The notes under the pieces were generated by a model. It saw nothing but the letters and a program-made list of their open reading frames with translations. It had not been told where the DNA came from and ran no database searches. Of a DNA stretch of 64,000 nucleotides, positions 1 through 64,000 are shown one piece after another. Numbering within the stretch: position 1 is the stretch's first letter; each line of letters starts with the position of its first letter. A program made the translations under genes and the position numbers. The stretch is from Gari tellinella (Eukaryota; Mollusca; Bivalvia; Cardiida; Psammobiidae): NCBI GenBank assembly GCA_922989275.2, contig OV277870.1, forward strand, positions 36,948,356 through 37,012,355, given 5' to 3'.

Positions 1-72
1 CATCAGGATCCAATCTGTTTGCAAAGGTAATCACTGTGGCACATATATCCGCCCCTAGCATGCAGAGTTACC
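1..72 (-). mobile_element. Family B element, cut by the window edge
   Basis: Right arm of a gamma hairpin followed by the reverse complement of the family B left arm (ACAGTGATTACC, GCGGATATAT and AGCATGC read on the minus strand). The rest lies before base 1. Confidence 0.6.
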
Positions 73-268
73 GTGTGCAAGCTTTAGCTGTATGCGGTTT
101 TCATAGGAGCATAGGTTAAGAGATGATTTATGGCTGAAAGGTAATTATAAAAAAAAATATCATTAAGTGATAAATTTTCATCATATTAGCTGTTTGTATT
201 GTCTATTAAAATCCTTGCTTTGCTGGAAATGGGCATACATAATTATACTTTGCAAACAGTACAGACCC

Positions 269-460
269 CAGGGTTCCAGAAAAAGGGAGTATTAAAAAAA
301 CGCAATCTTTATTTCTGCATTAAACCCTATGGTGTAACTACTCATTAGAATATTTTCTACAAGCAAATTTTAATGAGTAGTAACACCATAGGATTTGGTG
401 CTGAAATGAGTGAGAAAATGCTGGATTTGTTCAGTTTACTCCCTCTTATCTGGAGCCCTG
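269..460 (+). mobile_element. Family F hairpin element
   Basis: Starts with a variant of CAGGGCTCCAGATAAG and ends CTTATCTGGAGCCCTG. The centre is the delta-type inverted repeat (CACTACTCATTAGAAT and its complement), with the apex changed to an AT-rich loop in this copy. Confidence 0.75.
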
Positions 461-3683: not shown

Positions 3684-3887
3684 TTAACTCTTTGCATGCT
3701 AGTGGCGGATATATCTGCCAGATTGCCTTTGCAAACAGTTTGGATCCAGATGAGACGCCACATAATGCGGCGTCTCATCAGGATCCAAACTGTTTGACAC
3801 TCTGACCCTGAATTTAAAAGAAATTTTGAAAATTCTAATATTAGAACAGTTGCAGACGAAAAAATTACCCAGCATGTAAAGAGTTAA
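3684..3887 (+). mobile_element. Family B element (TTAA, gamma core)
   Basis: TTAACTCTTTGCATGCTAG to AGCATGTAAAGAGTTAA. The gamma core is GATCCAGATGAGACGCC-ACATAATGC-GGCGTCTCATCAGGATCC. The right arm carries GTTGCAGACG, diagnostic of the family. Confidence 0.85.
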
Positions 3888-4700: not shown

Positions 4701-4951
4701 TTAACTCTTTCCTCCCTGAAACTTTAAATGGACAATTCCAGTTTCCATTTTAGTCTAGTCCATTTCTGACTTTTAAGGGTTGTTTTTGTCAATGTTTGGC
4801 ATTATGACAAACAGTGAAGACCCTGATCAGAGGGCTCCTTTCGGAGCCCTCTGATCTGGGCCTTCACTGTTTGCACAGGACAAGTGTACAATTCACATGT
4901 TCACTGTTTGAAAAGGACGCCTATATGCGGGACTAGGGCTCAAAGGGTTAA
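4701..4951 (+). mobile_element. Family C element, near full length
   Basis: Good reference copy: TTAACTCTTTCCTCCCTG to GGGCTCAAAGGGTTAA, 251 bp. The beta hairpin at about 4809-4876 has the apex GGCTCC-TTTC-GGAGCC. Confidence 0.9.
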
Positions 4952-7070: not shown

Positions 7071-7191
7071 CCAGTGTTTTATCGTGCAATAAAACACAGG
7101 AAGTCATTGAGATGCTGGTAATCAAATCACTTGATTTAATTACTACACATCTCAACTCCTACCTGTGTTTTATTGCACGATAAAACACTGG
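7071..7191. repeat. Perfect 30-bp inverted repeat
   Basis: The arm starting CCAGTGTTTTATCGTGCAAT (7071-7100) recurs exactly inverted at 7162-7191. The 61-bp spacer contains AATCAAATCACTTGATTTAATT. It is unlike the alpha-delta cores. Confidence 0.85.
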
Positions 7192-7291: not shown

Positions 7292-7535
7292 TTAACACTT
7301 TCAACAAAATAGACCTGTTTAAAATATACCAAGTACATTTGCAAACAGTGTAGACCCAGATCAGAGGGCTCCTATAGGAGCCCTCTGATCAGGGTCTACA
7401 CTGTTTGCTAAGTCAGAGAAGTATTTATTAAACTTCCCAGAATTCCAAATAGACTGCATGGTTCATGTTTTAGTAACTAAAAATGATCCACAAGGGAATA
7501 TAATAACCCACAAGAGTTACTCAGTGTTGAGTTAA
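7292..7535 (+). mobile_element. Family D element (TTAA, beta core)
   Basis: TTAACACTTTCAACA to CAGTGTTGAGTTAA, 244 bp. The beta hairpin at about 7341-7408 has apex GGCTCC-TATA-GGAGCC. The right arm has TGGTTCATGTTTT and CCACAAGGG, shared by all D copies. Confidence 0.88.
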
Positions 7536-7955: not shown

Positions 7956-8114
7956 CAGGGCTCAAGATAAGAGGTAGTAAACTGAACAAATCCAGCATTT
8001 TGACACGCATTTCAATACCAAATCCTATGGTGTCGCTACTCATTAGAATCATCTCAAAGAGATGCTGAAATAAAGATTTTAGTTTTTGAAATACTCCCCT
8101 TATCTGGAACCCTG
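7956..8114 (+). mobile_element. Family F element, internally deleted
   Basis: CAGGGCTCAAGATAAGAGG to CTTATCTGGAACCCTG. The right half of the delta hairpin is largely deleted. Confidence 0.7.
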
Positions 8115-9595: not shown

Positions 9596-9819
9596 TTAAC
9601 TCTTTCCCTGCTAGCGGCAGATATATCTGCCACAGTGATTGCCTTTGCAAACAGATTGGATCCAGATGAGACGTCGCGTAACGCGGCGTCTCATCAGGAT
9701 CCAAACTGTTTAGCACTCTGAACATGTTTTGAAAAGAAATTTAGAAAATTCTATTTTTAGAACAGTTGCAGACGACAATTGTTGCAGACGACAAATATTA
9801 CCCAGCATGCAAAGAGTTC
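9596..9819 (+). mobile_element. Family B element
   Basis: TTAACTCTTTCCCTGCTAG to AGCATGCAAAGAGTTCA. The gamma apex is GACGTCGCG-TAA-CGCGGCGTC. The right arm repeats CAATTGTTGCAGACGAC. Confidence 0.85.
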
Positions 9820-10275: not shown

Positions 10276-10529
10276 CTTATATTACCCAATAGCCTGTTTC
10301 CACTTTTGAAAACAATTTTCTACTTAAAGCAGGTTGAAAGTAAAGCAGAATGCTCCTCAAGGCGCATTCTGCTTTACTTTCAGCCTACCTTTAAGCTACC
10401 ATCTTTTAAAATATAGAAAATAATTTTTTACGGTACATATAAAGATGACTGTATTAAGTGGAACTATTTTCAACAATGGCGGAATAAATTAAATTTGTAA
10501 AAAAGCGTAGTTATGGGGTAGTGGGTTAA
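10276..10529. mobile_element. Family A element
   Basis: The left end is eroded (ATTACCCAATAGCC); the right end is GGGGTAGTGGGTTAA. Alpha apex GCTCC-TCAA-GGCGC. Confidence 0.8.
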
Positions 10530-11402: not shown

Positions 11403-11616
11403 TTAACCCTTAGCCTGCCACTCACGACTATAGCTCCATATGCAAACAGCTTGGATCTGGATGAGACGCCGAGTAACTCGGCATCTCATCCAGATCCAAG
11501 CTGTTTGACACTCGGACAACATTTTCAGCAATTTTGAGCAACTTTGAAGCACTTTGAAACTTGAAGCAGACGAGAAATATAGCAGACGACAATTTATTTG
11601 GCGGGCTAAGGGTTAA
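11403..11616 (+). mobile_element. Family B2 element (TTAA, gamma core)
   Basis: TTAACCCTTAGCCTGCC and GGCGGGCTAAGGGTTAA are nearly perfect terminal inverted repeats. The hairpin is CAAACAGCTTGGATCTGGAT..GCCGAG-TAA-CTCGGC. The right arm carries GCAGACGACAAT as in family B. Confidence 0.88.
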
Positions 11617-12361: not shown

Positions 12362-12447
12362 AGCAGATGGAGCTTCTGATTTGAGTCTACACTGTTTGCA
12401 AATGATGTATATACTATAAGGTTCAATGCACTATAAAGTTTACTTTA

Positions 12448-12652
12448 CAGTAAGACCTCTCTATTACGACCAATAAAACGGAGGTTAATTGATTGTTTAA
12501 AAGACAGGTGATAGCTTAAAGCAAGGTGACAGTAAAACAGAAAGCTCCTGTAGGAGCTTTCTGTTTAACTGTCACCATACTTTAAGCATTCACCTGTCTT
12601 AAACACCTAATAATTAACACAATTTAGTGGTCGTAATAGAGAGGTTTAACTT
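12448..12652. mobile_element. Family E element (TA, alpha-like core)
   Basis: CAGTAAGACCTCTCTATTACG to CGTAATAGAGAGGTTTAAC. The core CTTAAAGCAAGGTGACAG.. pairs with its complement around apex AGCTCC-TGTA-GGAGCT. Confidence 0.85.
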
Positions 12653-12955: not shown

Positions 12956-13058
12956 CAAGACAGGTGGTTGCTTAATGCAGAAATTAAAGTAATGCAGAAA
13001 GCACCTCAGGAGCTTTCCGCATTACTTTTGTTCTTCATGAAAAAACTTCCTGTCTTTA
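12956..13058. mobile_element. Family I hairpin
   Basis: AAGACAGGTGGTTGCTTAATG.. AAAGTAATGCAGAAAGC pairs with GCTTTCCGCATTACTTT..CTTCCTGTCTT. Ends outside the hairpin are not defined. Confidence 0.65.
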
Positions 13059-13444: not shown

Positions 13445-13692
13445 TTAACCCATTATCCCATAAATACGCATTTTTACACCTGTTATATAGTCCTCCACTA
13501 AAGAAAATATATCCACTTTATGCAGTCGTGAATATGTACCAAAAGAAAAAAGTTCAGTATTCTGGCAGATATTACCTTAAAGCTGGCTGAAATTAAAGCA
13601 GAATGCGCCTAAAGGCGCATTCTGCTTTAATTTCAACCTGCTTTAAAAGGTCACCTTTTTTCATAACTATAATAAGGCTATGGGATATAAGA
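13445..13692. mobile_element. Family A element, right end eroded
   Basis: TTAACCCATTATCCC start. Alpha apex GCGCC-TAAA-GGCGC with both arms changed to GAAATTAAAG / CTTTAATTTC, a paired variant. Confidence 0.8.
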
Positions 13693-49500: not shown

Positions 49501-52500
49501 GCTTAATCCAGCCATACTTGAGGTAGCGTATATCAGGCAAATATCATAGGACACCGGAATCGGGCACGGATACTCTTGATAATATTTGCATACTGGTTGT
49601 GAATAAAGGCATCGAAGCCCTGTGACTTTCGAAAAAAGTTTCTCCGATATATTTAGTCTTATCTGTTAATATTTCCGTAAATATTAATCATAAACATCTT
49701 ATGAGCCCGTAAAAGCGCGACTTTATCTATTCCCTGATAAGCGCGGCTTTCCGCGGGTTATCAATTACCTGATGAGAGCGGGTTAGAGCGAGTCCTCTAT
49801 TTAGCGGCTAAAATCTCATTCTTCTACTGAAATTTTACTGTCCGGGTGTCTACACATTTAAAGTGTGTTCAAATATCTTCCGAAATCCCAAATCTAATTA
49901 TAGGGTTGCTACACAATGAATGAATTGCATAAAAAGAGGCTTAGGTCATTAGGTGTGACCTATTGTTGATCGGTGATCTCCGTAAGACGTGCATATGATA
50001 CTGCACGCACTACTCGTCACTTTTCGGAAAGTATGATCTATGTCAACTTATGAAATATGCAGATAAGTTATCACACGAAAGTTTCTAACTGTTCCTGAGG
50101 TCAACATCTAAATATAGTTAACCAATGGAATCGCGGAATTCCATAGAGCACGCTCCACATGCATATGCTATCTACAAAAATATCACAGGGGGATGCCGCT
50201 TGACCGTTGCGTCACACACCGGATGCGGGGGTAATAAAGTTTCGGCTCGGGAATAAAAGCTTTGGCTCATCAAAAGTAAGCATAATCCTAGGCGGTAGAC
50301 AGAAATATCAAACAACTAATTAACCAATCAAACAAATCACATCTGCAGGTCTGTGACAATTCTTTACTGTCCCATCTCGCAACTCGGATTCTCATCTAGA
50401 TCCAAACTGTAAAAATGAAACGATAAAACTCAGCTGTGAATCATTTTGGATCCTGATGAGAACCAAGCTACTCGGCGTCTCATCTACATCAAACGTGTGT
50501 AAAACTGGAAAGAAAGTAAAAATTGAATAATGCAAAGGTGTCAAACAGTTTGGATCCTGATGCAGTGCCGATCTACACGGTGTCTGATCAAAATTCAAAC
50601 TGATTGCGTAGGAATTCACGTGAGAAAAAAAACACTAATATATATCAAACAGTTACGACGCCGAGACACTCAACATTGTGATCGGGATCCAAACTGTCTG
50701 AATTTATACCAAAGGAATATTTCTTCATAAAATGTAAATCTGTTTAGATCTTGATCAGATGGCGAGCTACTCGGCGTCTCATCTTCATCCAAATCGCTTT
50801 TGTAAAACTATAATAAAAAATAATTGAATGTATTCCAAAAGTTTAAACAGTTTGGATCCTGATGCAGTGCCGATCTACACGGCGTCTGATCAAAATCCAA
50901 ACTGATTGCGTAGGAATTCATGTGAAAATAAATTCTTATAGATATCAAACAGTTACGACGCCGAGGCACTCAACATTGTGATCGGGATCCAAACAGTCTG
51001 AATTTACCGGTATATAAAAGGAATATTTCTTTATAAAATGTAAACTTGTTTAGATCTTGATCAGATGGCGAGCTACTCGGCGTCTCATCTTCATCCAAAT
51101 CGCTTTTTTAAAACTATAATGCAAAATAATTGAATGTTCTCTAAGATGTTAAACAGTTTGGATCCTGATGCAGTGCCGATCTACACGGCGTCTAATCAAA
51201 ATTCAAACTGATTGCGTAGGAATTCACGTGCAAAATGTTTTCTAATAGTTATCAAACAGTTGCGACGCCGAGTCATTCAACATTGTGATCGGGATCCAAA
51301 CTGTCTGAATTTATATCAAAGGAATATTTAATTCATAAAAAGCAAATCAGACTCCGAGTTACTGAGTACCTGAGCTATATCATTGCTTTTATTCAGATTA
51401 GACTCCGAGATACTGAGAATCTGAGCTGTATCAATGCTTAGATCCAGATCGGACTCCGAGTTACTCGGCTTTTAATCTGGATCTTAGTTGTTTTGAAATA
51501 CTATTCTATTGTATTCTTTTGTAGACAGCAGGTAAATCGTTACTCCATGCGGCATATATACTTACCATAGTAACATAAATCTAAGTAAAAATATATTGGA
51601 AATATATTGACTTGTATCGTTTTCACCCAATTGCATGCTACTTTTTCAAACTACCATAAAACTCGAATTTAAATCTTAAATTCAAATTCATTTAGGCCTA
51701 TATCTAAAAGTTGTTTGAATTTTTTTCTACAGAAATGACGAGTGTAAAACTACACCCAGAAATAAGAACGATAAAACTAGATCCAATCAAAATCGGATTT
51801 GGACTCAAGTAAGATAGCTCTATCAGATCGGGATCTAGATAATCGCAATGATTAAATTAAGAAAGAAAAAACCGATCTAGATCTACCCGTACAATATGTA
51901 GATCTAGTAATGAGACTTTTTTCATTAAGAATTTCTGTAGCGTTGAATTCCTAAACCGAGACGAACCAGCTAGAAAATGCTGATTTGTAAACGAGTTGGT
52001 AGATCTAAGCCAGTTCAACATTTAGGTCTAGATCAGCACAATACCGCTCTGATTATCAGATATATTTTTTATTGTAGATCTAGATCTATTATTATAATCA
52101 TCAATCAAGGTATTATGGATGTCGCCATACTCTACTGTTAGCCATTTCGCAGCATTGTTTTCCCAGATTTTACAGCTGGGAATTGGAACGGACATTTCTC
52201 TAAGCCGATTAACGATAGCTTCTGATCGTTTCTGGATCTACACGACCTTTCAAGTTCATCATAATCAATATGAATATACCATCTATCTATTATCTTTTTT
52301 TTTTAACTGTATGCGACCTTGAATTAAGCTTGCCGTTACCCTTACTGACGAAGTGTGAAATGTCCGTCCAAGTTACAGTGGTTGAGTGAAAGAGCCAATC
52401 AGCGTTTAGGCCTTTGTGTCGTCACAAAATCGATAAAAATCGAGGGTTCCGAATGATAGCTTTGCCAATATGGCGGCGCCCGTTCCAATTAGCGATAGCT

Positions 52501-55500
52501 TACCTGTATGCAGTAAATCGATCTTTTTCGTACCTTATCGATGAGTAATAATTGCAGGACCTTCATGAATGTTGCTTTTAGGATAAAATCTAGGATCTAA
52601 GACCATATTGTCATCAGCTGTCCGTTTTCCTTTAATAATCTTTTAATCTTACAAGAGTTATGTCCCCTGCAGAAATAAAACATTTTCCTTGTTGAGCATC
52701 ACCAGAATCATGTTTTTTCTTCTTTTTTTCTTAAAAAAAATTAAAATTATATTTATTTCTTTTTATCGGAAGAAACTTTATAGACAATGTCAAACTGTTT
52801 GGATCCAGATAAGAAGCCAAGTTACTTTCACAAAATTAATGCAAGTCATGTAAAGGTTTACCCTTTCTCAGTGCCTTTTAAGCGCATTCAGCTTATTCCT
52901 CCGCTGAAGAAAATAGTTCCAATTTATACAGTCATGAACATGTACCATAAGAATAATTGTCTATATCCTAGCAGATCAAAGCTTAAAACAGGCTGAAAGT
53001 AAAGCAGAATGTGCCTTATGGCACATTCTGCTTTACTTTCAACCTGCTTTACATGCTCGCCTGTCATCAAAATCAAAAGCAAGCTATGGGGTAAAGGGGT
53101 TATAGCAATAAAGGTAGGAATGCATGGAAATGCACATTTTTATCTGTGCATGATGGCTCTGTAGATGATTATCGATTAGGAATACAGGAGTTGAGGCTGG
53201 CTGAATGTGAACTTTGCTGGAAACTAGTGAAGATACTGGTCTGGAGATGAGATAATACCCGACTCATTCCCCTACCATAGGCCTGATAATTTCACTCTAG
53301 TATCATAATGGTTAAAACACATTTTTGACTGGAAGAGATACAGGTAATTACAGTCGAGTGACTATGCACAAGAATGTTTAAAAAAAAAAAAGATTCTAAT
53401 GAGTAGTAACATTATAGGATTTGGTGCTGAAATGAGTTAGAAAATGTTGGATTTGTTCAGTTTACCGGTACTCTTATTTGAAGCCCTGTATAAGTAATGT
53501 ACAATCAGTTTTAGACTCTTTCCATGGTAGATTGTTTTCAAGGTTGAAAGAGGTTGAATGTAAAGCTGATTTCTGTTTTACTTTCTCCTTTACATTTAAC
53601 CTTCTTTAAGCAGCCACCTGTTAGGATGTAGGAAAAGTTAACTAAAATGAGATTTCTACTTTACTTTCAATCTGCTTTATGCAGCCATTAGTCTTAATCA
53701 TAGATATCCAGCTTGTTAAAGTGGGAGGAGTTTATATTATGAATATTCAGCGGGAGAAGGGTTCAACAAACATCTTCACCGACTAAGATGGCCCTGAGAT
53801 TAAACTGCTACTGTATCTTTCTGATATAATCCCTACTTCATTTGTATCAATTACCCATTACTTACATAAAAATCTCCTTGTCTGCAACCTACAGAGAGTA
53901 ATTTTGATTAACCCATTTTATGCGGGATACACTTTTAGGTGTACCACTAGGCAAACAGTTTCGATCTCAGATCAGGCCCCACATGGTGGGGCCTGATCTG
54001 AGATCAATACTGTTTGCAGCCAAGTCAATATTCTATCAGAAACTTCTAAAATCTTTTGCAAATATTTGAGTTATACCGCTGCATATAGGACATTTTAAAA
54101 TGGCCGCCAAATATTACCCAGCATGCAATGGGTTAACCTTTACACTGCTGACTTTCCAAATGGAACTTTCTGTTTTCAAAATAATTACAATCTATAGAAA
54201 AAGAGTGGAAGTACAAGACCATGGCAATGTGGTATTTCTGATCTTTTATTTGCTACGTTTCAATCCCTCACTGGGTCTTTGTCAAGGATAATTACAAATT
54301 AACATTGACTCTTGTAGGGTTTGTTTAAAAGTATGGCAAACAGTGAAGAACCTCATCAGATTAAAATAATTCTTAATGCAAGACTCAACTTGAATTGACA
54401 GATTAATGCAGGATGTGTTAATGCACTACTTTAACCCATTACCTCATAAAAAAGCTTTTTGTGCCTTAAATTTGTTCCTTGAGTAAAGAAAATAGTTCTA
54501 CTTTATACTGGCATGAATTACTTCAGCCTGCTTTAAGCTACCTTCTGCTGGGATATAGAAAATATTTCTTATAATACATATTCATGACTGTATAAAGTAG
54601 AACTATTTTCTTCAGTGGAGAAAGGAATTTAAGGCATAAAAGGGCATGTTTATGATGTAATGGGTTAAAGCAGGCTGAAAGCAGTCACCAGTCAGAATGT
54701 AACCAGGAAACTCAAAGAATCAAAAGAAAATCTTTAAGAATAAGTAAATGGAAATAAAGATGTTTCTATATGTATTTGAAAATAAAATTTGTACATTATG
54801 TATGAATTTAATTTTTTCTCAGTTTAATTTTCCCCCAAAATTATCTAAAATAAAATAAAATAAAATAAAAAGAAATGGCTGAAAAATTCCTGGAGATTGA
54901 TTGCATATTTTTGCTTGGGAAATAATGCGTAGATTGAATTTTCCCCTAGATTCGCTTTCACCTCAGGTCTATTCCTGTTATCTGTAGAAAAATCTGATTT
55001 AAGGTATTTCTAGATGTTTTCATACAGAATTTTTTGTTATTTGTTTTGTGCTATCATAAGTGTGAATCATTTCAAATATTCTGGATATTTTCTATGAAGG
55101 ATTTTGGCCATGATGTTTTGCTGAAATTTTTAGTTGAAATATAATCAGACTTAGTTTGGGTTATTAGCCATTAAATTAGTCTTTAAAGACAGATGGTATA
55201 TGATGTAAGAAGTTTACCGTACCATTTAAAACAGGTTGAAAGTAAATCAAAATGCTCCTTAACCCATTACTCCATAGCCATTTTCTAGTTTTGAAAACAG
55301 ATGACTATTTAAAGCAGGTTGAAAGTAAAGCAGAATGCACCTTAACGGGGTATGGATTAACCCATTTCCCCATAGCCTATTTATTAGTTTTGAAGACAGG
55401 TGACCACTTTGGGAAACTTTCAAAGTATATGAAAACACTCTATGATGGTTTTGTATTGAAGAGCTATTTAAGATGAATGAGAAAATAGAAAAAGTGTACA

Positions 55501-58500
55501 TTTTGGTGAACAACAGTTGGCTCTACGGCCATGTAAAATTTACCCCACCCACTTCCTCTTATTTTGTCCATTTCAAACAGCCCGCTTCAATAAAATCCAT
55601 TTTAAATGAAAACAAATATGATAATTTGGTTTTGTGTTATTTATTTCCTATCTATGGTAGTATTTCTTCATACAAAAACTAATTTAAGAAAAAAAGGGCA
55701 CCAAATATGAAATTTATAAAGCTCTAAATAGCATCGATATGGTACTTTTTTGTAAATTTTGTAAGGGGAGATAACTCTTTTTACTTTAATAACTCAACAT
55801 TTTCAACACTGACCTTTCAATTTCTTTTCATATTTTGAACTGCCTTAGCATGGGCTTTCATCTGGTAGAATATAAGAAAAAGTTAAATACTAGAACTATT
55901 TCATTTTCAAACTTTTTTACTTTTTTTCATAAAATAAAAAATCTAATAAAATCATGCCCTATACAAAGCATATTTTTGATATTCAAGGATCGATATTGTT
56001 CAAACCTGGTGCCTGCTTTGTCTAAATTTGGTTTCTATATGTGAAAATACCACCATAGACACGAAATAAATAATGGAAACCCAAATTATCATGTTTGTTT
56101 TGTTTCGAAATAAATTTTACTGAAGCTTGTACCCTGAATGGGTAAAATTTGAAAAAAAAGTCCAAATTTGACATACCTTTTTCAAATCGCTGTAGCTCAA
56201 AAACAAGGACACCACCATATATTTTTTTTTTCATTTTTTCATTCATCATAAACAGCTCTTCCAAAAAATCAATGTTAGAAAAAAAGTTAAATACTTTGAA
56301 AAAATGGCTTATGACATTGATACACCCTTAAAGCAGATTGAAAGTAAAGCAGAATGCACCGTAATATACCTTCAGCCTGCTTTAAGTTACCATCTATTAG
56401 GATAAAGAACGTATTTTTTGATGTGTGTAACTGTTCAACGTGGAACTATTTTCCTCAGTAAACGGAAACACTAAAGGCGTGAAAAGGCCTATTTATGGGG
56501 TAATTGGTAAGCTGTATCTTGTCTTTTCTCCAGCTTGTTGGTGAGAAGGAGAAATGTGACCGAGAGAAATGGGAGATCATACAGAAGGCGCGACATGCTG
56601 CAGAGCAAGCAGTGTTCTTACAGACCCAGTCAGAGTCACGGGAACAGCATATACAGAAACTGGAGGTGGAGCTTGCAGAGGTGGGTACAACATACATACA
56701 TTAACACATTTAAAGCCTACTGTCTACAAAAATGGACATTGGCAAACAGTGTAGTCCCTGCAGAAAAGCCATGTTACACTATGAAATATGTTTCTGTATG
56801 GACAAACACGTAAATGACTTTAGATAACCCTTGTATATCTACAATGAAATCTTTCAGCAGCCATAAAATGGGTAAATCCATTACCCCATGGCTTGTTTCC
56901 AGTTTTCAAGATAGATGACCACTTAAAGCAGGTTGAAAGTAAAGCAGAATGTGCCTTAAGGCATATTTTGCTTTACTTTCAGTCTACTTTAACCCATTAC
57001 CCCATATTCAATTTATAGGTTTGAAGACAGATAACTACTTAAAGCAGGTTGAAAGTAAAGCAGAATGCGCCTTAGCCTTCTTTAAGCTATTATCTGTTAG
57101 GAGATAGAAAATATTTCTTATGATACATGTTCATCACTGCATAAAAGTAAACTATTTTCTTCAGTGGAGGAATAAATTATAGGCGTAAAAAGGTGAATTT
57201 ATGGGGGAATGGGTTAAGTTACAATCTGCTAAAATATGGAACATATTTCTTGTGGTGCATTCATGATTGTGCATTTGGAACTATTTTCTTCAGTGGAAGA
57301 ATGAAAATTAAGGCGTAAAATGCATATTTATGGGGTAATGGGTTAATATAAGATTTTTCCCCAATACTAAAGAGGTGCTGTATCAATATGATGTTGACAT
57401 CTGTTGGAAACGCTGAATACAAGAAAGGATCAGACACCCACCTATTTATAGGGATTTCAATAATTGAACACTTTAGTCAATAGAGATGTGACAATTTGTT
57501 GTTAGCAATGTGTCTTATCTATTTCAGCTACGAGACCAAATAGCCCGAAGTCGTCTATACACCCTAGACTTGCCTTGTACACCAAAGAGTCTGGATTCCC
57601 ATACACCAACAAGTGATGACTTACCGCCCTATGACACCCCTCCCCCATCAGCCAATGACAGCTCAAAGGAGGAGTGTTTCCATGGTAATCTAACACTTTA
57701 CTCCATAGCCTGTTTCTAGTTTTAAAGACAAGTGACCATGCACTTAAAGCAAGTTGAAAGTAAAGCAGAATGTGCATAAAGGCGCATTCTGCTTTACTTT
57801 CAGCCTGCTTTAAGCTATCATCTGCCAGAATATAGAGAATATTTCTTTTGATACATATTCATGACTGTTTAAATTGGAACCGTTTTCTTCAGTGAAGGAA
57901 TAAATTAAATGCATTAAAATGTGTATCTATGGAGTAATGGGTTAAGTTGTGCTGTTTACAGACTTGTAATTCAAACATTGATAAAATAGGATTATTAAAG
58001 TGAACCTTGAGAAAATTAAAACTGAATAAAAAAGCATGGCAATCTTAAGAGACAAAACCCCACCTGAAACTTATTGTTTTATTTTTATCCTGCAATAAAC
58101 TGCCACATGTATTAAAAACTTATGATTTAATTTGATCAAATAGCTTCTTCAGGGGAAGTCTTGATATGAGCCTACACTGTTTTGAAAATGTGTCTATATA
58201 CGCTTATAGCAGAACAGTTTCAAATATTTTATGTTTGTTTAACACATTCTACCCTAAAGACGAGTATACTCATCATTAACCAACAGTGTACCTTTGGAAA
58301 GTGCACTTTACACTTGTCCTTTGCAAACAGTGTAGACCCAGATCAGATGTTTTCTAAAGAGCCCTCTGAACAGAGTCTGCACTGTTTGTCATTTTGCAAT
58401 ATATTACAAAAACAACCCTAAATAGTCAAAAAGGGACAAGACGTAAGTGGCAAATGGAATAAAAGGGACAAAGGGAAACAGTGAAGACTCTGATCAGATG

Positions 58501-61500
58501 CTGCATAATGCAGCACCTGATCAGAGTCTAAACTGTTTGTTGATAGGAATTTGAATATAAAACAAAATGAAAATGAAAATTTAGAACAGGCACCCTCACA
58601 TCAGAAATGGACTCATCCAAATGCAATTTATAAGCATGGAAGAATCCACTTGGCATAAATGAGTTAAAGTTACAGGGGTGATTGAGTTAACCCATTACCC
58701 CATAGACTGTTTATAGTTTTAAAGAAAGGTCACCACTTAAAGCAGGTTGAAAGTAAAGCATAATGTGCCTTTTGGCGCATTCTGCTTTACTTTCAGCCTG
58801 CTTTAAGCTACACCCTAAAGGATATAGAATATATTTCTTATGGGGCTTTTTTATGACTTTATTAATTGGAACTATTTTAGAAATAAATTGGAGGCGTAAA
58901 AAGGCTTATTTATGGGGTAACAGGTTAAACTGTTTCTGTTGCAGTACCCACCAGCACCCCAAAACTGGGCAACAAACATGACGATGAAGATGTGTTCACC
59001 CCATTAAACCAGTTCCTTGAGAACAACAACAACCATAACTTAAATGACAACAACAAAACCATGGACAGTCTGGACGGCTCTAACGATTCCAAGAAGAAGA
59101 AGAGAATCAGTCTAGGAGGCTCAATCTCAAAGGTTTTCTCTCGTGGCAAGACAAGGCGGTCTCTCGCAATGCCAGTGGAGAGTTCAAACGGTGAGCCATG
59201 GCTGAAACTATACTTTAGGCAAATTAATGGCCAGAAATAATACTATAAGATCATAGATTTATATTGTCACACTTGTCTTTTCATGCTTGATCAAATCCTA
59301 AAACAAGAAAGAAAATCAGGAAATTGATGATGTCTCCAATTATGACTAGTTGTTAGAATCAAGGTTTGGTTTTTGATCTGTCATTCTCGTATTAACTCTT
59401 TGCATGCTAGAGGCGGATATATGTGCCAAAGTGGTAACCTTTGCAAACAGTTTGGATCCTGATGAGATGCCGCTAAACCTGGCGTCTCATCAGGATCCAA
59501 ACTGTTTGACACTCTGACCCTGTTTATGTAAAACTAGGGAAAAGGATGATTATGAATGTTGTTTATTTTTGTTTCAGAATTACCAGCAAACACGAGAATC
59601 ACTCTACTCAATCCAGAGAACTATCAGGAGAAGCTGAAGATAGTGGATCAGCTAAAGATGTGTCACATGTCAACCTGGAAGGCCAATCAGGTCCTAGCAT
59701 GGCTCGAGATTGTCCTCAATATGCCAGTGTATGGCAAAAAATGTGCAACAAACATCAAAAGTGGCAAGGTACACACTAGGGCAGATATCTTTGCTAATAA
59801 ATATGTTTGTGCTGAAAATGGTATGTCCATTGCAAACAGTTTGGAGCCAGATCAACATTTAGACCACTGTATCTTTGGTGGAGTTGTGCCCCTTGACGGG
59901 TTTTCTTGTACTCAAGGCATTCTCATTGAAATTAACCATTAAATAAAACCTATGTTAAAGCAGTTTTGTGATTTAATATAGGTGACTAATTAATGCATAA
60001 CAGAATGAAAGCAGAATGCTCCAGTATTAGATGTCTGCTTTACATTTGTGCTGTATTTAGCTTGCACCTGTATTGTAAACTTCCAAGTTATGTTCTTTTG
60101 AGTAGCTGTATAACCCACTGAGCCCTAGCGAGAAGTATACTCATCATTTAAAAAAAATGTGCACCTGGACCAGGAGCCCTTTGAACAGAGTCTGCACCAT
60201 TAAGTTTGTTCTTTTGCAGTAAACTGTAAAAATTACCATATAAAGTTTGAAATTAATTAGACTCAATTAAAAACTGAAATACATTGACCATTTGAAGTTT
60301 GAGGGTTGAATGAGTAACTACAAATTAAACTTCATACTGTTTGGGAAGTTTAAATTCATGATTTATGTTTGTCAGGTGCTACTGGGTATGAGTGACAATG
60401 ACCTTGGCTCTGCCCTAGAAATAAAGAACCCACTTCACCGCAAAAAGTTACGACTAGCCATTGAGGAGCAGAGGAATCTCACTGAAGGGTAGGTACCATA
60501 TTGCTATTTTCTGGTGAAGTAATGCTTTGGATTCACACATTTGATTTTAACTCTTTCCCCCATTTGTGGAGAATAAAGTGCAATACAGTGTTCCCTCACT
60601 ACAACGGCCCTCCGAACAACGATTCCCTCCTAACAACGACCACTGCCGCAATTCCCTAAACGGAACAATTATGTCTAACACTTTAACTGTTTCAATATCG
60701 TCTGCTTAAAATGGTCGTCTGCTGTTTTCTCAAAGTTACATAATGAACATTTTGACCAAAAAAAACTGAATGACGTGTGACAAACAGCTTGATGCGGCGT
60801 CTGATCTGAATTCATGCTGTTTGCAAATGTACGCCAATTTCCCTCCCTATAATGATTCCCTCCAAAGATCGCACATAATTTTTGTCTCCTGTTGGGTGTC
60901 GTTGTAGAGAGGGAGCGCTGTAGATGCTTTTGTGAGGTAAAAGGGTTAATTTCTCAGCTAAGTCTTTTCTTTCTTCAAACAATCATTCCATATTCTTGAC
61001 TTACAGAATTCAGTATCAAGTCCATAATTTTATTTAACCCATTACACCATTAATATGCCTTTTGTACGCCTTTAATTTATTCCTACACTGAAGAAAATAG
61101 TTCCACATTATGCATTCATGAATATGTATCATGAGAAATATTTTCTATATTCTATTAGATGATAGCTTAAAGCAGATTGAAAGTAAAGCAGAATGCGCCT
61201 AATGGCGCATTCTGCTTTACTTTCAACCTGCTTTAAAAGGTCACCTGGGGCCTCTGTGGCCTAGTGGTAAAGTCACTGTGACTTACATCACTAAGCTCCT
61301 CACGGCTGCGAGTTCGAATCCAAGTAGGGTCGTTCGGTTTTTTCATTTGGGGAAGCCTTCCAGCTGGCTTGCGGAAGGTCGGTGGTTCTACCCAGTTGTG
61401 ATTTGTGCCTGAAAGAGTGCATAAAGGACTTCTGGGGTCTTCCTCCACCTGTAATTAGCTGGACGTCGCGATATGACTGAAATAATGTTGAAGGCGGCGT

Positions 61501-63542
61501 AAAATCAAAACAAATCAAATCAAATTAAAAGGTCACCTATCTTCCATAATAGAAATAAGCTATAGGGTAATGGGTTGAATAAAGAAAATGATTTTGTGTG
61601 TTGGTTTTTTTCAGGGTATGTCCCAAATGTGCAATGTTAGACCACAGTTGGGTGGCGAACATATGGCTGAGAGATATCGGTCTACCACAATACTCAGTTA
61701 TCTTTGAAAGTAACCTCGTGGACGGAAGGATGCTGAACAATCTGTCACGTAAAGATATGGAGAAACATCTCCAGGTCCACAGGAAGTTTTTCCAGTCCAG
61801 TATACTACATGGCATACAGTTACTTAGAAAGCTTGGCTTTGATAAAGAGGTGAGAGCCATGGACAAGACAATAACTTAATTTATCACATAAAACCATCTC
61901 TGGCAGTGTAAAAAAGGCGCTCAATAAATGATAGTGAAATATTAATATTTGGACTCCGCTCAGTCACAAGCGTTGCATAAAGGGAGACGCCAAATGATGT
62001 CATTTGTGACGACGTTACTATAAACATTGTCAAGTTTTGGCGTAAAATACATATGGCGGAGGGACTACAAACTACAGCTTCAGTTGATTTAATAGATTTT
62101 TAAAATTTTATGTGATAAAAAAGAATCTCACACCCGTGCTCATTACGTATATATTTTAATAAACTCATTGACTGAAATAAATATTACACTCACCAAGGCT
62201 TGCATCATATTATTTTAGTCAACTTGTATATTAAAATGAGCATTAATGAGCCTTTGCTCCATAGCCAAAATGTAATATATACATTTCATGTACAAGTAGT
62301 GCACCTGTGAGAGAGTACACTTGTCTTATGTAAATAGTGTAGACCCATATCAGATGGCTTCTAAAGGAGGTATGTGATCAGAATCTGCACTGTTTTCTTA
62401 ACTCTTTGAACCCTAGTCATGCATATATGCGTCATTAGCAAAAAGCATAACTGTGAGGAGTACACTTGTCCTATGCAAACAGCGCAGACCCTGATCAGAA
62501 GGCTCCTTAAGGAGCCCTCTGATCAGGGTCTACACTGTTTGATATTTTGACATATATTGTAAAAATCAATCGTAAAAAGTCTAAAATGGACTAGACTAAA
62601 TTGAAAACTGGAATTGTCTATTTGAGATTGCATGGAGGAAAGGGTTAAATGATCTGTCTGGCAGGAGTCTATACTCTTTTCTGTGGGGAAAGATATCCTT
62701 CTTTTATCAGCAATTGAAATAGATAAGATTGTAGATGTTCATAATAGACAGAGTTTAATGTATGAATATTTAGTGGGAGAAAGTTTTAGGTCGAGATTAC
62801 CATTTACATGCCTTACCATTTAATTTCAGGTTCTTGCTCAACGACGGTCAGACTGTGATAAGGTGTTCACAGATCCTATAGTGTGGACCAACCAGAAGGT
62901 TATAGAATGGGTACAAAACATAGACTTGGAGGTACGCTTCCCAGCAATTCCTTTACCCATTACCCCAAAGATATGCCTTTTAATGATCCCATATGACTTA
63001 GTTGAGGCATATTGTTTTTGTCGTGTCTATCCACAAATTTAATCTTGGCCTTAACTCTAGAACTAGATGTGATAGAGTCTTTATACATGTATATTGTTTG
63101 GGTACTCATCTCAAGAATCTCTTGAGCTCAGTACAATTCATTTAGAGGTCAAATAAGCTTAATTTAACATTTGTCATAATTTGGAACAAAATGTGATAGA
63201 GACTTCATATTTGACAAATGTATTCAACTGAAGAAGCTCAAATTCAAATTTATGCTTTCTTTAAAATCATAAACCTAAAGAGGGATGTTGTAATAATAAA
63301 AACAATTCTCTAATATTACATTACTTGTATATCCGGTGAAGAGAAGGTCAATGAATGTATTGCCATGTATTTCAGGAGTTTGCGGACAATCTCAAGGAAT
63401 CTGGTGTTCATGGGGCATTGATAGTGTTGGAGCCAACGTTCACTGCAGACTCACTTGCCTCATGTCTGGGAATCCCACCGTCCAAGTTGTACATCCGCCG
63501 CCATCTAGCCTCAGAGTTAGAGACTCTAGTCAAACCAGCCAG
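40228..63542 (+). CDS. KAZN: Kazrin gene, 11 coding exons seen, both ends open
   Basis: Joined exons give about 697 residues with all ten introns in phase. Order: coiled coil (about 30-300), Pro/Ser/Asn-rich linker and basic patch (about 300-430), then three SAM domains (about 455-522, 534-604, 621-690). Order and short motifs (VEDNKQLAAKIDG, ALKADRKRLKGEK, FMRNYEQ, VDGRMLN, DPIVWTNQ, SGVHGA) match vertebrate kazrin as I know it. Kazrin is a cytoplasmic scaffold. It is reported to bind periplakin and envoplakin at desmosomes and catenins, and to act in endosomal recycling. Three SAM repeats also occur in liprins, but the coiled coil and motifs favour kazrin. The start exon and C-terminal tail are not in view. 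Introns range from 387 bp to 9.1 kb and are mostly transposon DNA. Confidence 0.93.
41166..42137. mobile_element. Pogo-like TA element, 972 bp, non-autonomous
   Basis: TA at 41164-41165 and 42138-42139. Ends CAGTGTAGCTCCATTA.. and TAATGGAGCTACACTG pair; subterminal ATCGCGG/CCGCGA repeats (41183, 41213, 42085, 42110) are typical of Tigger/pogo ends. A self-complementary CTCGCGCATGCGCGAG lies at about 41848. No transposase is seen. Confidence 0.83.
42664..42760. mobile_element. TTAA fragment with small hairpin
   Basis: TTAACCTTCCTCCTGC, then AGATCAGACAGCTCC-TGAA-GGAGTTGTCTGAT, a beta variant like that at 17340. Confidence 0.55.
43054..43304 (-). mobile_element. Family C element, reverse, full length
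   Basis: TTAACCCTTTGAACCCTAG to GCAGGAAAGAGTTAA. Perfect beta stem; apex GGCTCC-TTAT-GGAGCC. Confidence 0.92.
43335..43542. mobile_element. Family E element, diverged
   Basis: TA then CAGTGAAACAAGACTTAAAC to TTTTATTTTACTG. Core GCTTAAAGCTAGATGAAAG. Shares the TA at 43543-43544 with the next copy. Confidence 0.75.
43545..43741. mobile_element. Family E element, adjacent copy
   Basis: CAGTAAAACCTCTCTAATAC to GACGTTTTATTG, followed by TA. Apex AGCTCC-TTTA-GGGGCT. Confidence 0.85.
43803..44002 (-). mobile_element. Family B element, reverse orientation
   Basis: TTAACTCTTTGCATGCTGGG, TCGTCTGCAACAATTGTCGT, then a gamma core that breaks after GACGCCGCGTTA. Confidence 0.8.
44588..44758. mobile_element. 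Family G element, internally deleted
   Basis: TA, CAGTGCTCCCTCCCTACAAC to GTTGTAGACAAGGAACACTG. Only a gamma right arm (CTGGATTCGAGCTGTTT) remains. Its end is 47 bp before the next exon. Confidence 0.82.
44806..45021 (+). CDS. KAZN: Kazrin exon b: coiled coil
   Basis: Acceptor GATTGTTTTAG|TC, donor G|GTAATT. 216 bp, one-base phase on both sides. Encodes DEENELIRLREENQRLETN and a run ending QTKQDLNRAKDALA. Charged Glu/Arg/Leu heptads show a coiled coil. In vertebrates the matching segment ends RAKEALQ. Confidence 0.93.
45029..45340. mobile_element. Family A remnant split by element K
   Basis: TTACCCCTTACCCCATAGC before 45048 and TGTTTCTTAGAAGTTTTGG after 45291 rejoin into a normal A short arm. 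Confidence 0.7.
45048..45293. mobile_element. Element K, 246 bp, delta-like core
   Basis: Ends CAGGGGCCGTTTCATAAAAC and its complement GTTTTATGAAACGGGCCCCTG shortened by one base. Inner hairpin GTCTCTTTGGAATCGTCTT/AAGACGATTCCAAAGAG shares GAATCGTCT with the delta core of family F. Confidence 0.83.
45420..46850. repeat. Bivalve-type dispersed repeat with 319-bp tandem units
   Basis: Begins TTAGCTCAGCTGAGCAC.. GGTGAGCTTTTGTGGTCGGT and ends GGTGAGCGATCAAGGGCCAT.. GGCCCTCTTG. Inside, CTTAAAAAATCTTCTTGTCT recurs at 45666, 45982, 46301 and 46622, giving units of 316-321 bp. This layout is widespread in bivalve genomes (recollection). Open frames at 46009 and 46398 are repeat translations. Confidence 0.82.
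47288..47448 (+). CDS. KAZN: Kazrin exon c: coiled coil
   Basis: Acceptor TTTATTTCAG|CT, donor CTA|GTAAGT. 161 bp; leaves in phase 0. Encodes ALKADRKRLKGEKLELL, LYGTLEDKESELRDFMRN and YEQRMRES, the most conserved stretch of the kazrin coiled coil. Confidence 0.95.
47765..48220. mobile_element. Family E element interrupted by family C
   Basis: TA, CAGTAAAAAAAGAAAAC at the left, GTAATAGATGGGGTGTACTG, TA at the right. The E core is split at TTAA. Confidence 0.78.
47904..48149 (+). mobile_element. Family C element nested in family E
   Basis: Flanked by TTAA at 47900-47903 and 48150-48153. Beta apex GGCTCC-TTTC-GGAGCC. Confidence 0.9.
48250..48474. mobile_element. Family A element, eroded
   Basis: TTTACCCATTACTCTATAAA to GGTGTAATATGTTAA. 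Alpha apex GTGCC-GTAA-GGCAT. Confidence 0.78.
48505..48702. mobile_element. Family J element, copy 2
   Basis: Central palindrome AAAGTTAAAACGTGGC-TAAA-CCACGTTTTAACTTT style. Right half matches 29249-29330 inverted. Ends ACTGTAAAACT.. and ..AGTTTCAATTGTA. Confidence 0.7.
49238..49438 (+). pseudogene. Possible captured coding fragment
   Basis: A 66-codon open frame with acidic composition (QCYDFDPKLSEN, ILEDRDYDGSGEEK). It faintly recalls the acidic N-terminus of P2X7-like domain proteins expanded in molluscs; that is memory, not a match I can test. No start context or splice site supports a gene. Confidence 0.25.
50390..51490. repeat. 304-bp tandem array built of gamma-like hairpins
   Basis: AAACAGTTTGGATCCTGATG.. 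recurs at 50543, 50845 and 51151. Each unit also has CAGTTACGACGCCGAG..GATCGGGATCCAAAC and TTTAGATCTTGATCAGATGG..CGGCGTCTCATC. Three different gamma hairpins per unit. Flanking parts (50395-50500, 51345-51490) hold more worn ones. Confidence 0.85.
52785..52850 (+). mobile_element. Family B fragment
   Basis: AAACTGTTTGGATCCAGATAAG and GCAAGTCATGTAAAGG; one arm only. Confidence 0.45.
52857..53101. mobile_element. Family A element
   Basis: TTTACCCTTTCTCAGTGCC to GGGGTAAAGGGGTTA. Apex GTGCC-TTAT-GGCAC. Confidence 0.83.
53388..53491 (+). mobile_element. Family F right half
   Basis: GATTCTAATGAGTAGTAACA through TTTGAAGCCCTG, preceded by an A-tract where the left half should be. Confidence 0.7.
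53908..54136 (+). mobile_element. Family B3 element (TTAA)
   Basis: TTAACCCATTTTATGCGGG to CAGCATGCAATGGGTTAA. Perfect long hairpin CAAACAGT.TCGATCTCAGAT..GGCCCC-ACATGG-TGGGGCC. The right arm has ATTACCCAGCATGCAA as in family B. Confidence 0.87.
54431..54667. mobile_element. Family A element, core reduced
   Basis: TTAACCCATTACCTCATAAA to GATGTAATGGGTTAA. Only CAGCCTGCTTTAAGC remains of the hairpin. Confidence 0.8.
54846..54873. repeat. TAAAA microsatellite
   Basis: About five AAAAT units. Confidence 0.85.
55210..55356. mobile_element. Family A fragments
   Basis: TTAACCCATTACTCCATAGC at 55259 with a single alpha arm before and after it. Confidence 0.6.
55357..56514. mobile_element. Family A element interrupted by element H
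   Basis: Left part TTAACCCATTTCCCCATAGC to GGTGACCACTT (55408). Right part TTAAAGCAGATTGAAAG to GGGGTAATTGGTAA (56513). H lies in the TTAA of CTTAAAGCAG. Confidence 0.82.
55411..56327. mobile_element. Element H, copy 2
   Basis: Nearly identical to 35915-36830. The right end ATGACATTGATACACCC is followed by TTAA. The left terminal repeat and its TTAA are deleted. The frame from about 55473 matches the copy 1 frame closely. Confidence 0.85.
56534..56680 (+). CDS. KAZN: Kazrin exon d: end of the coiled coil
   Basis: Acceptor TTTTCTCCAG|CTT, donor GAG|GTGGGT. 147 bp, phase 0 at both ends, 49 residues. Encodes EKEKCDREKWEIIQKARHA and QHIQKLEVELAE. The acceptor lies 21 bp after the end of a family A element. 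Confidence 0.92.
56872..57346. mobile_element. Outer family A element with nested A
   Basis: AAATCCATTACCCCATGGC to GGGGTAATGGGTTAA. Split at CTACTTTAA / TTAAGTTACAATCTG. Confidence 0.88.
56993..57213. mobile_element. Inner family A element, 221 bp
   Basis: TTAA on both sides (56989-56992, 57214-57217). CCCATTACCCCATATTC to GGGGGAATGGG. Core partly lost. Confidence 0.92.
57528..57684 (+). CDS. KAZN: Kazrin exon e: linker start
   Basis: Acceptor CTATTTCAG|CTA, donor CATG|GTAATC. 157 bp, phase 0 in, one base out. Starts LRDQIARSRLYTLDLP, then a Pro/Ser/Thr/Asp-rich disordered linker (TPTSDDLPPYDTPPPSAND). This linker differs from the vertebrate one. Family A sequence begins about four bases after the donor. 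Confidence 0.88.
57689..57945. mobile_element. Family A element next to the exon e donor
   Basis: TAACACTTTACTCCATAGCC to GGAGTAATGGGTTAA. Apex GTGCA-TAAA-GGCGC. Confidence 0.87.
58239..58445 (-). mobile_element. Family C-like element
   Basis: TTAACACATTCTACCC, GCAAACAGTGTAGACCCAG, apex worn. The right arm fades without TTAA. Confidence 0.65.
58470..58545. repeat. Beta/gamma intermediate hairpin
   Basis: AACAGTGAAGACTCTGATCAG and CTGATCAGAGTCTAAACTGTT arms around ATGCTGCATAATGCAGCAC: a beta stem with a gamma-like apex. Confidence 0.75.
58687..58927. mobile_element. Family A element next to the exon f acceptor
   Basis: TTAACCCATTACCCC to GGGGTAACAGGTTAA. It ends 17 bp before the exon, so the acceptor tract AACTGTTTCTGTTGCAG starts in or at its border. 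Confidence 0.88.
58945..59190 (+). CDS. KAZN: Kazrin exon f: linker and basic patch
   Basis: Acceptor TTCTGTTGCAG|TA, donor G|GTGAGC. 246 bp, one-base phase on both sides. Asn-rich FLENNNNHNLNDNNK, then SKKKKRISLGGSISKVFSRG and KTRRSLAMP. The GSIS-VF-RGK-R-SL pattern matches vertebrate kazrin, where this basic region is linked to nuclear targeting and phosphorylation (established for the family, inferred here). Confidence 0.93.
59391..59540 (+). mobile_element. Family B element in intron 6, right arm missing
   Basis: TTAACTCTTTGCATGCTAG, gamma hairpin GATGAGATGCC-GCTAAACCT-GGCGTCTCATC, then CACTCTGACCCTGTTT. Intron 6 spans 59191-59577. Confidence 0.8.
59578..59768 (+). CDS. KAZN: Kazrin exon g: first half of SAM1
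   Basis: Acceptor TTTGTTTCAG|AA, donor AAG|GTACAC. 191 bp; ends in phase 0. Encodes ELPANTRITLLNPENYQEKL, then MSTWKANQVLAWLEIVLNM and YGKKCATNIKSGK. Trp and Leu core positions of SAM helices 1-2 are present. Confidence 0.94.
60376..60488 (+). CDS. KAZN: Kazrin exon h: second half of SAM1
   Basis: Acceptor TTTGTCAG|GTG, donor GG|GTAGGT. 113 bp. Encodes VLLGMSDNDLGSALEI and PLHRKKLRLAIEEQRN. The donor before the in-frame TAG is needed; the alternative GT at 60493 would include the stop. Intron 7 (59769-60375) holds a worn C-like fragment at about 60115-60316. Confidence 0.93.
60586..60920. mobile_element. Family G element
   Basis: TA, CAGTGTTCCCTCACTACAAC to GAGAGGGAGCGCTG, TA. Contains ATCGTCTGCTTAAAATGGTC and a one-sided gamma core (CAAACAGCTTGATGCGGCGT). 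Confidence 0.85.
61034..61579. mobile_element. Family A element interrupted by a SINE
   Basis: TTAACCCATTACACC to GGGTAATGGGTTGA. Alpha apex GCGCC-TAAT-GGCGC. It ends about 35 bp before exon i. Confidence 0.88.
61247..61525 (+). mobile_element. tRNA-derived SINE with 14-bp target duplication
   Basis: Flanked by TTAAAAGGTCACCT (61233-61246 and 61526-61539). A box GTGGCCTAGTGG (about 61256) and B box GAGTTCGAATCC (about 61310) at tRNA-like spacing. The 3' part has GATATGACTGAAATAATGTTGAAGGCGGCG, close to a conserved core of molluscan and other metazoan SINEs (recollection), then an ATCAAA tail. Mobilised by LINE machinery; inserted within intron 8. Confidence 0.92.
61615..61849 (+). CDS. KAZN: Kazrin exon i: SAM2
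   Basis: Acceptor TTTTTTTCAG|G, donor GAG|GTGAGA. 235 bp; enters with one base, leaves in phase 0. Encodes the whole second SAM domain: LDHSWVANIWLRDIGLPQYS, NLVDGRMLNNLSRKDMEKHL, SSILHGIQLLRKLGF. Closest to the vertebrate protein of all exons here. Confidence 0.96.
61850..62829 (+). other. Kazrin intron 9 (980 bp)
   Basis: Unique sequence to about 62235, a worn C-like fragment (62235-62397), then a full family C element and a short unassigned tail. Confidence 0.75.
62398..62647 (-). mobile_element. Family C element, reverse, full length
   Basis: TTAACTCTTTGAACCCTAG to GGAGGAAAGGGTTAA. Apex GGCTCC-TTAA-GGAGCC. It sits at the TTAA at the end of a worn C-like fragment. Confidence 0.9.
62830..62931 (+). 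CDS. KAZN: Kazrin exon j: first part of SAM3
   Basis: Acceptor TAATTTCAG|GTT, donor GAG|GTACGC. 102 bp, 34 residues, phase 0. Encodes VLAQRRSDCDKVF then DPIVWTNQKVIEWVQNIDLE, the first helices of SAM3. Confidence 0.95.
62932..63375 (+). other. Kazrin intron 10 (444 bp)
   Basis: One of the few introns with no clear hairpin element. A short TTTACCCATTACCCC trace occurs at 62951-62966. Confidence 0.7.
63376..63542 (+). CDS. KAZN: Kazrin exon k: rest of SAM3, last exon in the window
   Basis: Acceptor GTATTTCAG|GAG, donor AG|GTAATA. 167 bp; leaves with two bases, so coding continues beyond. Encodes EFADNLKESGVHGALIVLEP, TADSLASCLGIPPSKLYIRR and HLASELETLVKPA. Vertebrate kazrin continues with a tail of roughly 90 residues after the matching point in the long isoform. 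Confidence 0.94.
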
Positions 63543-64000
63543 GTAATATTTCTATGTTGTCCAAGTCCTTCAGATGAGACTTTATAAACTGAGGTCCGAT
63601 GTGTCAGCGCTTTACACTCACCGTCCAAAAGAACCAGAGAACTCTGTTGATAATAAGAGTAGGGCATCACATCGGGGTTTCTGTATCTGCTCCCCACTCT
63701 CTGGGGTGTCCAATTAATGGCAGAAATAGACCCCAAAAAACAAACCAAACCAAAAATGTATATTGAATGGCAATTATGTAGGGTACGAAACTACAGTTAA
63801 TCTTGCATGTTCGAAGCAAGCACTTTGGAAGTAAAATAAAGATCTCTGAAAACAGACAACGGTTTAATGCAGTATAGATAAAATGATCAGGAGCTTCGTG
63901 CAAATTTTTTCCTTGCAATTCACAGTTGCCTGTATTTATGGTATTCTAAGGGTCTTCTATCAAATGGTCAGTTATTTCAAGATTAGCTGCAGGGCTGCCA
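63543..64000 (+). other. Start of kazrin intron 11
   Basis: No exon recognised. An I-like worn hairpin lies at about 63850-63940 (GGTTTAATGCAGTATAG.. TTGCCTGTATTTA). Confidence 0.6.

Follow-up and report, generated by a model that had tools for sequence, protein, structure and literature searches.

Internal hairpin cores shared by short transposons with unrelated ends in the genome of Gari tellinella

The stretch of DNA analysed here, 64,000 nucleotides of contig OV277870.1 of the bivalve Gari tellinella (assembly GCA_922989275.2, positions 36,948,356 to 37,012,355), is called the window in what follows and is numbered from its first letter. It contains, at 61592-61876 on the forward strand, an exon-like stretch with a SAM domain (Pfam SAM_1 match, 1.8e-11) that among solved chains is closest to liprin-alpha, and we take the exons of the window to be those of kazrin. 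Given this exon-like stretch, the numerous hairpin elements compiled in Table 1 lie in or near a gene, perhaps within its introns. No tRNAs were found in the window, and no Rfam match in it was above the gathering score. Repeats of other kinds were also observed, including a minisatellite-like tandem repeat at 15350-15790, another long inverted repeat present in two copies with similar open reading frames (35982-36649 and 55446-56327) and, at 50434-51496, arms of the beta type described below that are repeated ca. 300 bp apart (50542, 50844, 51151) and may form a tandem array that arose from a TTAA element.

Table 1. Hairpin-bearing elements located in the window
Element	Position	Strand	Features
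E	12447-12651	+	TA, CAGTAAAACCTC-type ends, alpha core 12501-12600
E-related	14701-14860	+	A-like stem, E-like apex
E	15947-16167	+	alpha core
E	27311-27494	-	alpha core
E	28842-29049	+	alpha core
E	39328-39534	-	alpha core
E	43334-43534	-	alpha core
E	43544-43742	-	alpha core
A	10281-10528	+	TTAA, alpha core
A	13446-13687	-	alpha core
A	17666-17916	+	alpha core
A	19560-19805	+	alpha core
A	23400-23642	+	alpha core
A	30211-30456	+	alpha core
A	31328-31576	-	alpha core
A	33718-33966	-	alpha core
A	34573-34823	-	alpha core
A	37781-38030	-	alpha core
A	57691-57944	+	alpha core
A	58688-58927	+	alpha core
Hc composite	20066-20319	+	CAGGGCTGCC-type ends, 6-bp duplication ATGAGT, one A end and alpha hairpin inside
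N composite	18010-18368	+	TA, CAGTGCTCCCTC-type ends, TTAA-element side and beta/gamma hairpin inside
N composite, second copy	60585-60921	+	
B	4702-4950	-	TTAA, gamma core
B	16519-16766	+	gamma core
B	23933-24180	-	gamma core
B	25055-25301	+	between two A-element pieces (24940-25060, 25300-25425)
B	43055-43303	+	gamma core
B	47901-48152	-	gamma core
B	62399-62647	+	gamma core
beta	3685-3886	+	TTAA
beta	9597-9818	+	
beta	18638-18865	+	
beta	35236-35460	+	
R	11403-11615	+	TTAA, beta-like core
U	53909-54135	+	TTAA, divergent beta/gamma core
G	7293-7531	+	TTAA-flanked, gamma core
G	26263-26491	+	gamma core
G	32622-32869	+	gamma core
G	32945-33180	-	gamma core
G	38933-39157	+	gamma core
F	269-460	+	CAGGGCTCC-type ends, delta core
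F	7956-8114	-	delta core
F	29912-30102	-	delta core, duplication TAATAT
F	30666-30858	+	delta core, duplication CTACTT
F	32397-32588	-	delta core
F	39853-40044	+	delta core
K	45050-45291	+	GGGGCCCGTTTC-type ends, delta core
eps	29245-29440	-	TA, CAGTTTAAACTCG-type ends, fourth core unrelated to the other three
eps	48510-48699	+	

By a single stem-score rule 78 strong hairpins were counted in the window, a number that rises to 80 when larger loops are allowed; three Markov shuffles gave 1, 0 and 0. A wider sample of the assembly (1,597,604,326 bases in 80 contigs, ca. 1.6 Gb), made up of 24 pieces of 10 kb placed at round coordinates and taken from 16 contigs, 240 kb in total, yielded 212 hairpins, or 0.88 per kb, a density that extrapolates to ca. 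1.4 million hairpins in the genome. Clustering of the 212 by their arms gave 100 of the beta/gamma kind (and 2 similar ones), 68 alpha, 12 delta, 4 eps and 26 others, ca. 6 of the latter being fragments of the same cores as judged by eye; the three mutually unrelated cores alpha, beta/gamma and delta make up 180 of the sampled hairpins. Additional loci comprised eight 3-kb pieces chosen by the delta 9-mer GAATCGTCT, and therefore biased towards delta, and 20 short loci chosen by the terminal repeat of E, all near the start of contig C1. The 9-mer occurs 148,685 times in the genome compared with 15,130 for its reversed control, and the E terminal repeat has 9,316 exact occurrences compared with 0.

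Fourteen consensus elements, constructed from clusters of hairpin sides and their pairings, range from 194 to 363 bp, and all of them have inverted ends and an internal hairpin; those of Q, R, beta, G, U, K and eps derive from only 3-5 copies each. Judged by size only, the 14 would be devoid of coding capacity. The A consensus (252 bp, TTAA) carries the alpha core, and those of B, Q, R, beta, U and G (213-251 bp, TTAA-type ends) the beta/gamma core; by their CCC/CTC-type ends all these TTAA families may be piggyBac-like. E (209 bp, alpha core), T (250 bp) and N (363 bp; these two with the beta/gamma core) are TA elements with CAGT ends; together with eps (198 bp, TA, a core of its own) they may be pogo/Tc1-mariner-like, judging by CAGT-type ends. 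CAGGG ends delimit both Hc (255 bp, alpha core) and F (194 bp, delta core), while K (243 bp, delta core) has GGGGCCCG ends.

A fixed target-site duplication of the MITE type was found overall, being weak or absent in U, beta, Q, F and K. TA is duplicated in 23 of 27 copies of E, in 7 of 8 of N (on both sides) and in the one of eps (1/1), and TTAA in 19 of 33 copies of A, 13 of 19 of B and 4 of 5 of R, more weakly in U (3/11) and beta (2/8) and in none of the 9 copies of Q. A 6-bp duplication accompanies 7 of 8 copies of Hc and, by a longest-match rule, 2 of 12 of F; no target duplication was found in the 6 copies of K. For T, 31 of 149 end pairs are flanked by TA left and right, a figure from a 10-base end search that is too loose to be informative.

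The same hairpin core sits in elements with unrelated ends, and this is real and extends beyond the window. Alpha is carried by A (TTAA), E (TA) and Hc (6-bp duplication), delta by F and K, and beta and gamma, which are one core, by the TTAA families and by the TA families T and N. An earlier note on this DNA, made from its letters, had counted 28 agreements in 34 positions between the arms of A and E; exactly this number was recovered for the inner arm positions, and over the entire arm 41 of 50 positions agree (z 14.6, 0 of 200 shuffles as high). The delta motif GAATCGTCT that the note had pointed out in F and K is indeed common to both, and their likeness in fact covers the entire arm (35 of 49 positions; z 10.2, 0 of 200 shuffles as high). 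The arms of T and Q agree at 31 of 36 positions, and the comparisons of B with beta (z 7.0) and of T with B (z 10.0), again with 0 of 200 shuffles as high in each, place beta and gamma in a single homology group. Among 28 arm comparisons in total, all 16 within-group pairs scored above all 200 dinucleotide shuffles and none of the 12 between-group pairs did so, the nearest being K-E, for which 4 of 200 shuffles were as high.

As regards the flanks, 10 of 728 comparisons were above the null maximum of 23, namely A-Hc (44), N versus R, beta, Q and U (25-38) and TTAA families with each other (24-29). Among the same 728 comparisons no match above the null was found for A-E, for T with any family or for F-K, which lie at chance level. 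In the consensi from the wider sample, the pairs A-E, T-TTAA and F-K are thus not homologous over their full length and the likeness of their cores is not lost, which agrees with the view of the earlier note that cores and ends have had different histories. The flanks of the TTAA families Q, R, beta and U also resemble one another, so that the sharing of gamma is partly a matter of plain common descent. The converse situation, shared ends with different cores, is found in K and the element M described below.

The note had also assigned the gamma stem to B, B2 and B3 (TTAA) and to G, which it took to be flanked by TA. G is instead a TTAA-flanked family: TTAACTCTTTCAACAC marks the element edge in both side consensi of G (4 and 6 sides), and TTAA is present at each end of the copy at 7293-7531 and at the right end of that at 26263-26491. 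The same core nevertheless does occur in TA elements: in the window it is carried by N (18010-18368, 60585-60921), and outside it by the abundant family T. Three copies of G (7338, 33069, 38975) were observed to be similar well beyond the element, including part of a 44-nt palindrome (at 7071-7191 in the window and also upstream of other G copies), and G may be part of a larger repeat. Several apices of B (e.g. 16595-16660, 25132-25199) show GAAA or GTAA loops on one strand.

Two composite families indicate how a core may come to lie within other ends. Hc retains, inside its CAGGG ends, an A side from CCTTTACCCCATAGCC through the hairpin to ca. 15 nt beyond the distal arm, and N retains a Q/R-like side of a TTAA element (flank scores 25-38) that starts at TCTAACGCTTTCAC, its own sequence restarting within ca. 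10 nt of the distal stem edge, all these limits having been placed by eye in the consensi. Each has kept one donor end and lost the other near the stem. Two Hc-labelled sides (L019 8595, L024 2836) have arms that clearly resemble those of A more than those of Hc, and in a small tree the arms of the two families are intermixed, as expected if A was the donor. N and Hc, the two clear recent cases, look like the products of nested insertion and then trimming, and this is their likely origin. In three T elements an A element sits, always in one orientation, at the same TTAA; the T hairpin is there in all three, though damaged in L021, and each of the T ends can still be recognised. This could be an earlier stage of composite formation, and the site may be a hot site or belong to an amplified composite. 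M, known from one complete copy (L023, 6491-6720) and a partial one (L004), has two K-like ends that match K over ca. 50 nt (49 versus 13.6±2.3) and a core that by raw score (39 to G, 8 to K) is of the beta/gamma kind; a TTAA piece inside M (score 18, with 7-24 of 200 shuffles as high) is only suggestive. No captured donor flank survives in E, T, F or K.

At present, a given kind of end mostly goes with one hairpin. Two independent labels, one from the flank and one from the best-matching core, were given to the hairpin sides; 159 of 529 sides were left unlabelled and two small clusters (3 and 4 sides) had no family of their own. The own core was the best one in all labelled sides of T (71), E (22), F (19), K (8), eps (5), Q (17), G (9) and U (6), as well as in 9 of 10 of R and 10 of 13 of beta, and a core of another class was found in none of the 120 labelled sides of T, E, F and K. 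The 40 sides labelled B split into 25 with B and 15 with G as best core, these two cores being nearly identical, the 18 labelled Hc into 13 Hc and 5 A, and the 98 labelled A into 85 A, 11 Hc and 2 other; the latter 2, like the exception in R, are read as neighbouring or nested elements. N-labelled sides gave 22 N, 4 Q and 1 T out of 27, and since N has one TTAA-type side in common with its presumed donor and this side is part of the cluster, the Q-like ones may be TTAA elements. Conversely, recognised ends hold the core in 73 of 77 cases for T, 31/34 for E, 21/24 for N, 37/39 for B, 20/22 for Hc, 19/21 for F, 110/133 for A and 6/8 for K, where both misses are M. The loci chosen by the E terminal repeat hold the E core in 19 of 20 cases, some of them damaged (L039, L043, L050), and the other one holds an N insertion. 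No continuing swap of cores between classes is thus seen among labelled sides. In subsampled trees a branch separates the E arms from the rest (support 98), and another does so for the T arms (79, not significant); a beta/gamma tree of 78 sampled arms, with 37 columns, too few for a rooted history of the cores, has no starred branch, and the TA label needs 4 changes on it.

The element at 14701-14860, outside the labelled sides of this count, is the "14680 element" that the earlier note described as an A stem combined with an E apex, and the description holds. Its arms are nearest to Hc and A (scores 64 and 60), its apex and ends are E-like, and taken in its full length the element matches E (58 bits). 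It looks mixed; this single copy, whose apex is shared by E and the P-type hairpins, may be a recombinant but may equally preserve an old form of the core, and a swap or a further capture may have taken place here.

The mean divergence from the consensus was lower in arms than in flanks in all 12 family sets (e.g. 0.069 versus 0.151 in T, 0.081 versus 0.164 in A and 0.113 versus 0.135 in E), although the sets of Q, R and beta overlap and those of U, K and Hc have only 4, 6 and 9 copies; the hairpin therefore looks retained. Compared with the 26-nt ends, too, the arms diverge less in T, A, B and N, and to a similar degree in E and F. Among copies picked by their ends alone, arm divergence was the lower in 27 of 27 for T, 15 of 17 for B, 16 of 17 for A, 10 of 11 for E and 9 of 9 for N; flank values in these copies (0.216 in T) are probably inflated by alignment, so that the ca. 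2-fold factor from the consensus sets is safer. In independent pairs of middle distance the arm/flank ratio was 0.37-0.77 in eight families and 0.86 in F. In close pairs it was near or above 1 in E, Q, R and beta (6, 3, 3 and 2 pairs), which fits constraint in active source copies with neutral decay after insertion, and 0.41 (0.21-0.65) in T (14 pairs), 0.53 in B (6), 0.54 in F (3) and 0.62 in A (4), which suggests that in these families the arms are also protected or homogenised after insertion.

Across seven beta/gamma consensi, both partners have changed in 9 of 27 base pairs and a single partner in one; 95.8% of cells are paired, and covariation is 0.282 compared with 0.093±0.023 in shuffles (rows being family consensi, with U and M left out). 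An RNA-level role of the stem was rejected: in the copies, G.T and A.C mismatches are equal (315 versus 329), with no strand-specific tolerance of wobble pairs. This equality and the scarcity of G-U intermediates favour a DNA palindrome or copying from arm to arm over an RNA stem. Private changes affecting both arms of a single copy numbered 10, against 3.1 expected, among 520 private changes, so that copying between arms after insertion appears to be rare.

The reading that we favour, with a probability of ca. 0.58, is that a retained hairpin is captured on rare occasions by new transposon ends and is not itself mobile. The genome holds a very large set of MITE-type elements of several end classes, each with a near-perfect hairpin of 32-53 bp, and most of these hairpins are drawn from three unrelated cores. 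A hairpin element, of the TTAA class in the recent cases, would insert into another short transposon; one side of the insert would be lost almost as far as the hairpin base, after which the outer ends would mobilise and amplify the composite. Older captures (E, T, F/K) would keep only the hairpin in common because flanks decay faster than arms. The hairpin would be a retained, probably useful internal module that rarely changes hosts, and does so by capture. We infer the nesting in E, T, F and K, the order of the steps in E, T and F/K, the trimming step and the help of the hairpin in amplification. A bolder proposal, that the hairpin is a selected and transferable amplification module, that any short transposon capturing one of the three cores multiplies, and that transposons of different end classes have acquired these cores on at least four occasions (E, Hc, T, N), amounting by extrapolation to ca. 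a million hairpins in the genome, is put forward only tentatively, and we rather doubt it.

The earlier note had offered two explanations, a mobile or selected hairpin module and template switching. "Selected" fits the slowly changing arms, selection being deduced here from rates only, but self-mobility is not supported. Were the hairpin itself a mobile unit inserting into transposons, the alpha-type hairpins without clearly recognised ends (e.g. 12958-13056, 25790-25880, 28395-28495) could be free copies of it; their whole-element matches to E are weak, however (27-44 bits), and they could be degenerate relatives, most recognised ends hold the core, and direct repeats at the stem edges, counted at exact edges, are 0-3 bases long in the 14 consensi, the longest (3) in Hc, all of which makes such mobility highly improbable. 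As for template switching, the recent cases N and Hc look nested instead, and it keeps a place for the old cases and for the element at 14701-14860. An exchange in trans, in which replication or repair switches template at the hairpin and cores are swapped at the stem edges, would account for homology that in E-A, T-Q and F-K is detectable no further than the stems, for beta/gamma pairs changed on both sides as if one arm had been copied from the other, for the excess of private both-arm changes and for the E-like ends with A-like arms of 14701-14860. That excess is small, however, and the absence of other-class cores from the 120 labelled sides, the E core in 19 of the 20 E-repeat loci and the common branching of E arms, and without significance of T arms, speak against it, so that we consider such an exchange rather unlikely.

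It can also be the case that a single lineage had its ends diverge or be replaced stepwise. Plain common descent of this kind holds within the TTAA class, where Q, R, beta and U have like flanks, but as an explanation for the whole it is improbable: the TA, TTAA and 6-bp duplications, together with different terminal repeats, would imply different transposases, the flanks of A-E, T-TTAA and F-K are at chance, and K and M combine the same ends with unrelated cores. Finally, a likeness by chance or base composition of AT-rich stems has nothing in its favour beyond the low complexity of some arm stretches, and it is refuted by the dinucleotide shuffles, none of 200 reaching any of the 16 within-group scores, as well as by the near absence of hairpins (0-1) from the shuffled window.

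Nothing on point about MITEs that share cores under different ends was found among the open-access papers searched, and arm and end sequence strings were found in none of them; pattern scans of viral and other genome contigs for relatives gave one match, in a viral contig (L001), which is taken as chance. The Pack-TYPE transposons of plants (PMC8903248) are likewise described as non-autonomous elements that gain foreign internal DNA between their terminal repeats, but the DNA captured there is coding, whereas here it is a hairpin from another transposon; the strings "chimer", "nested" and "hairpin" have 0 occurrences in the main text of that paper. The elements of Gari resemble MITEs in their length (194-363 bp), inverted ends, TTAA or TA duplications in several families and very high copy number. 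In ordinary MITEs the ends are the conserved part, and success in copy number is usually credited to the ends and a borrowed transposase; here, by contrast, there is an internal near-perfect hairpin that is the slowest-changing part in most sets and is common to several end classes. The fact that an internal hairpin, found with TA, TTAA and 6-bp end classes, changes most slowly and is shared most widely affects the classification of transposons, since sorting by internal sequence and by ends gives different answers, and if the hairpin helps amplification it would be a feature that works with several transposases. Foldback or palindromic elements, such as the palindromic TTAA repeats of C. elegans, are short DNA elements with long inverted repeats; in the elements described here, unlike these, the hairpin is separate from the terminal repeats, with sequence between them, and occurs with several types of ends. 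Nested insertions of transposons can give composite elements, and N, Hc and the A elements inside T look like cases of it, with the difference that in N and Hc the insert has been cut to one end and the hairpin, and that the composite is itself repeated in the genome.
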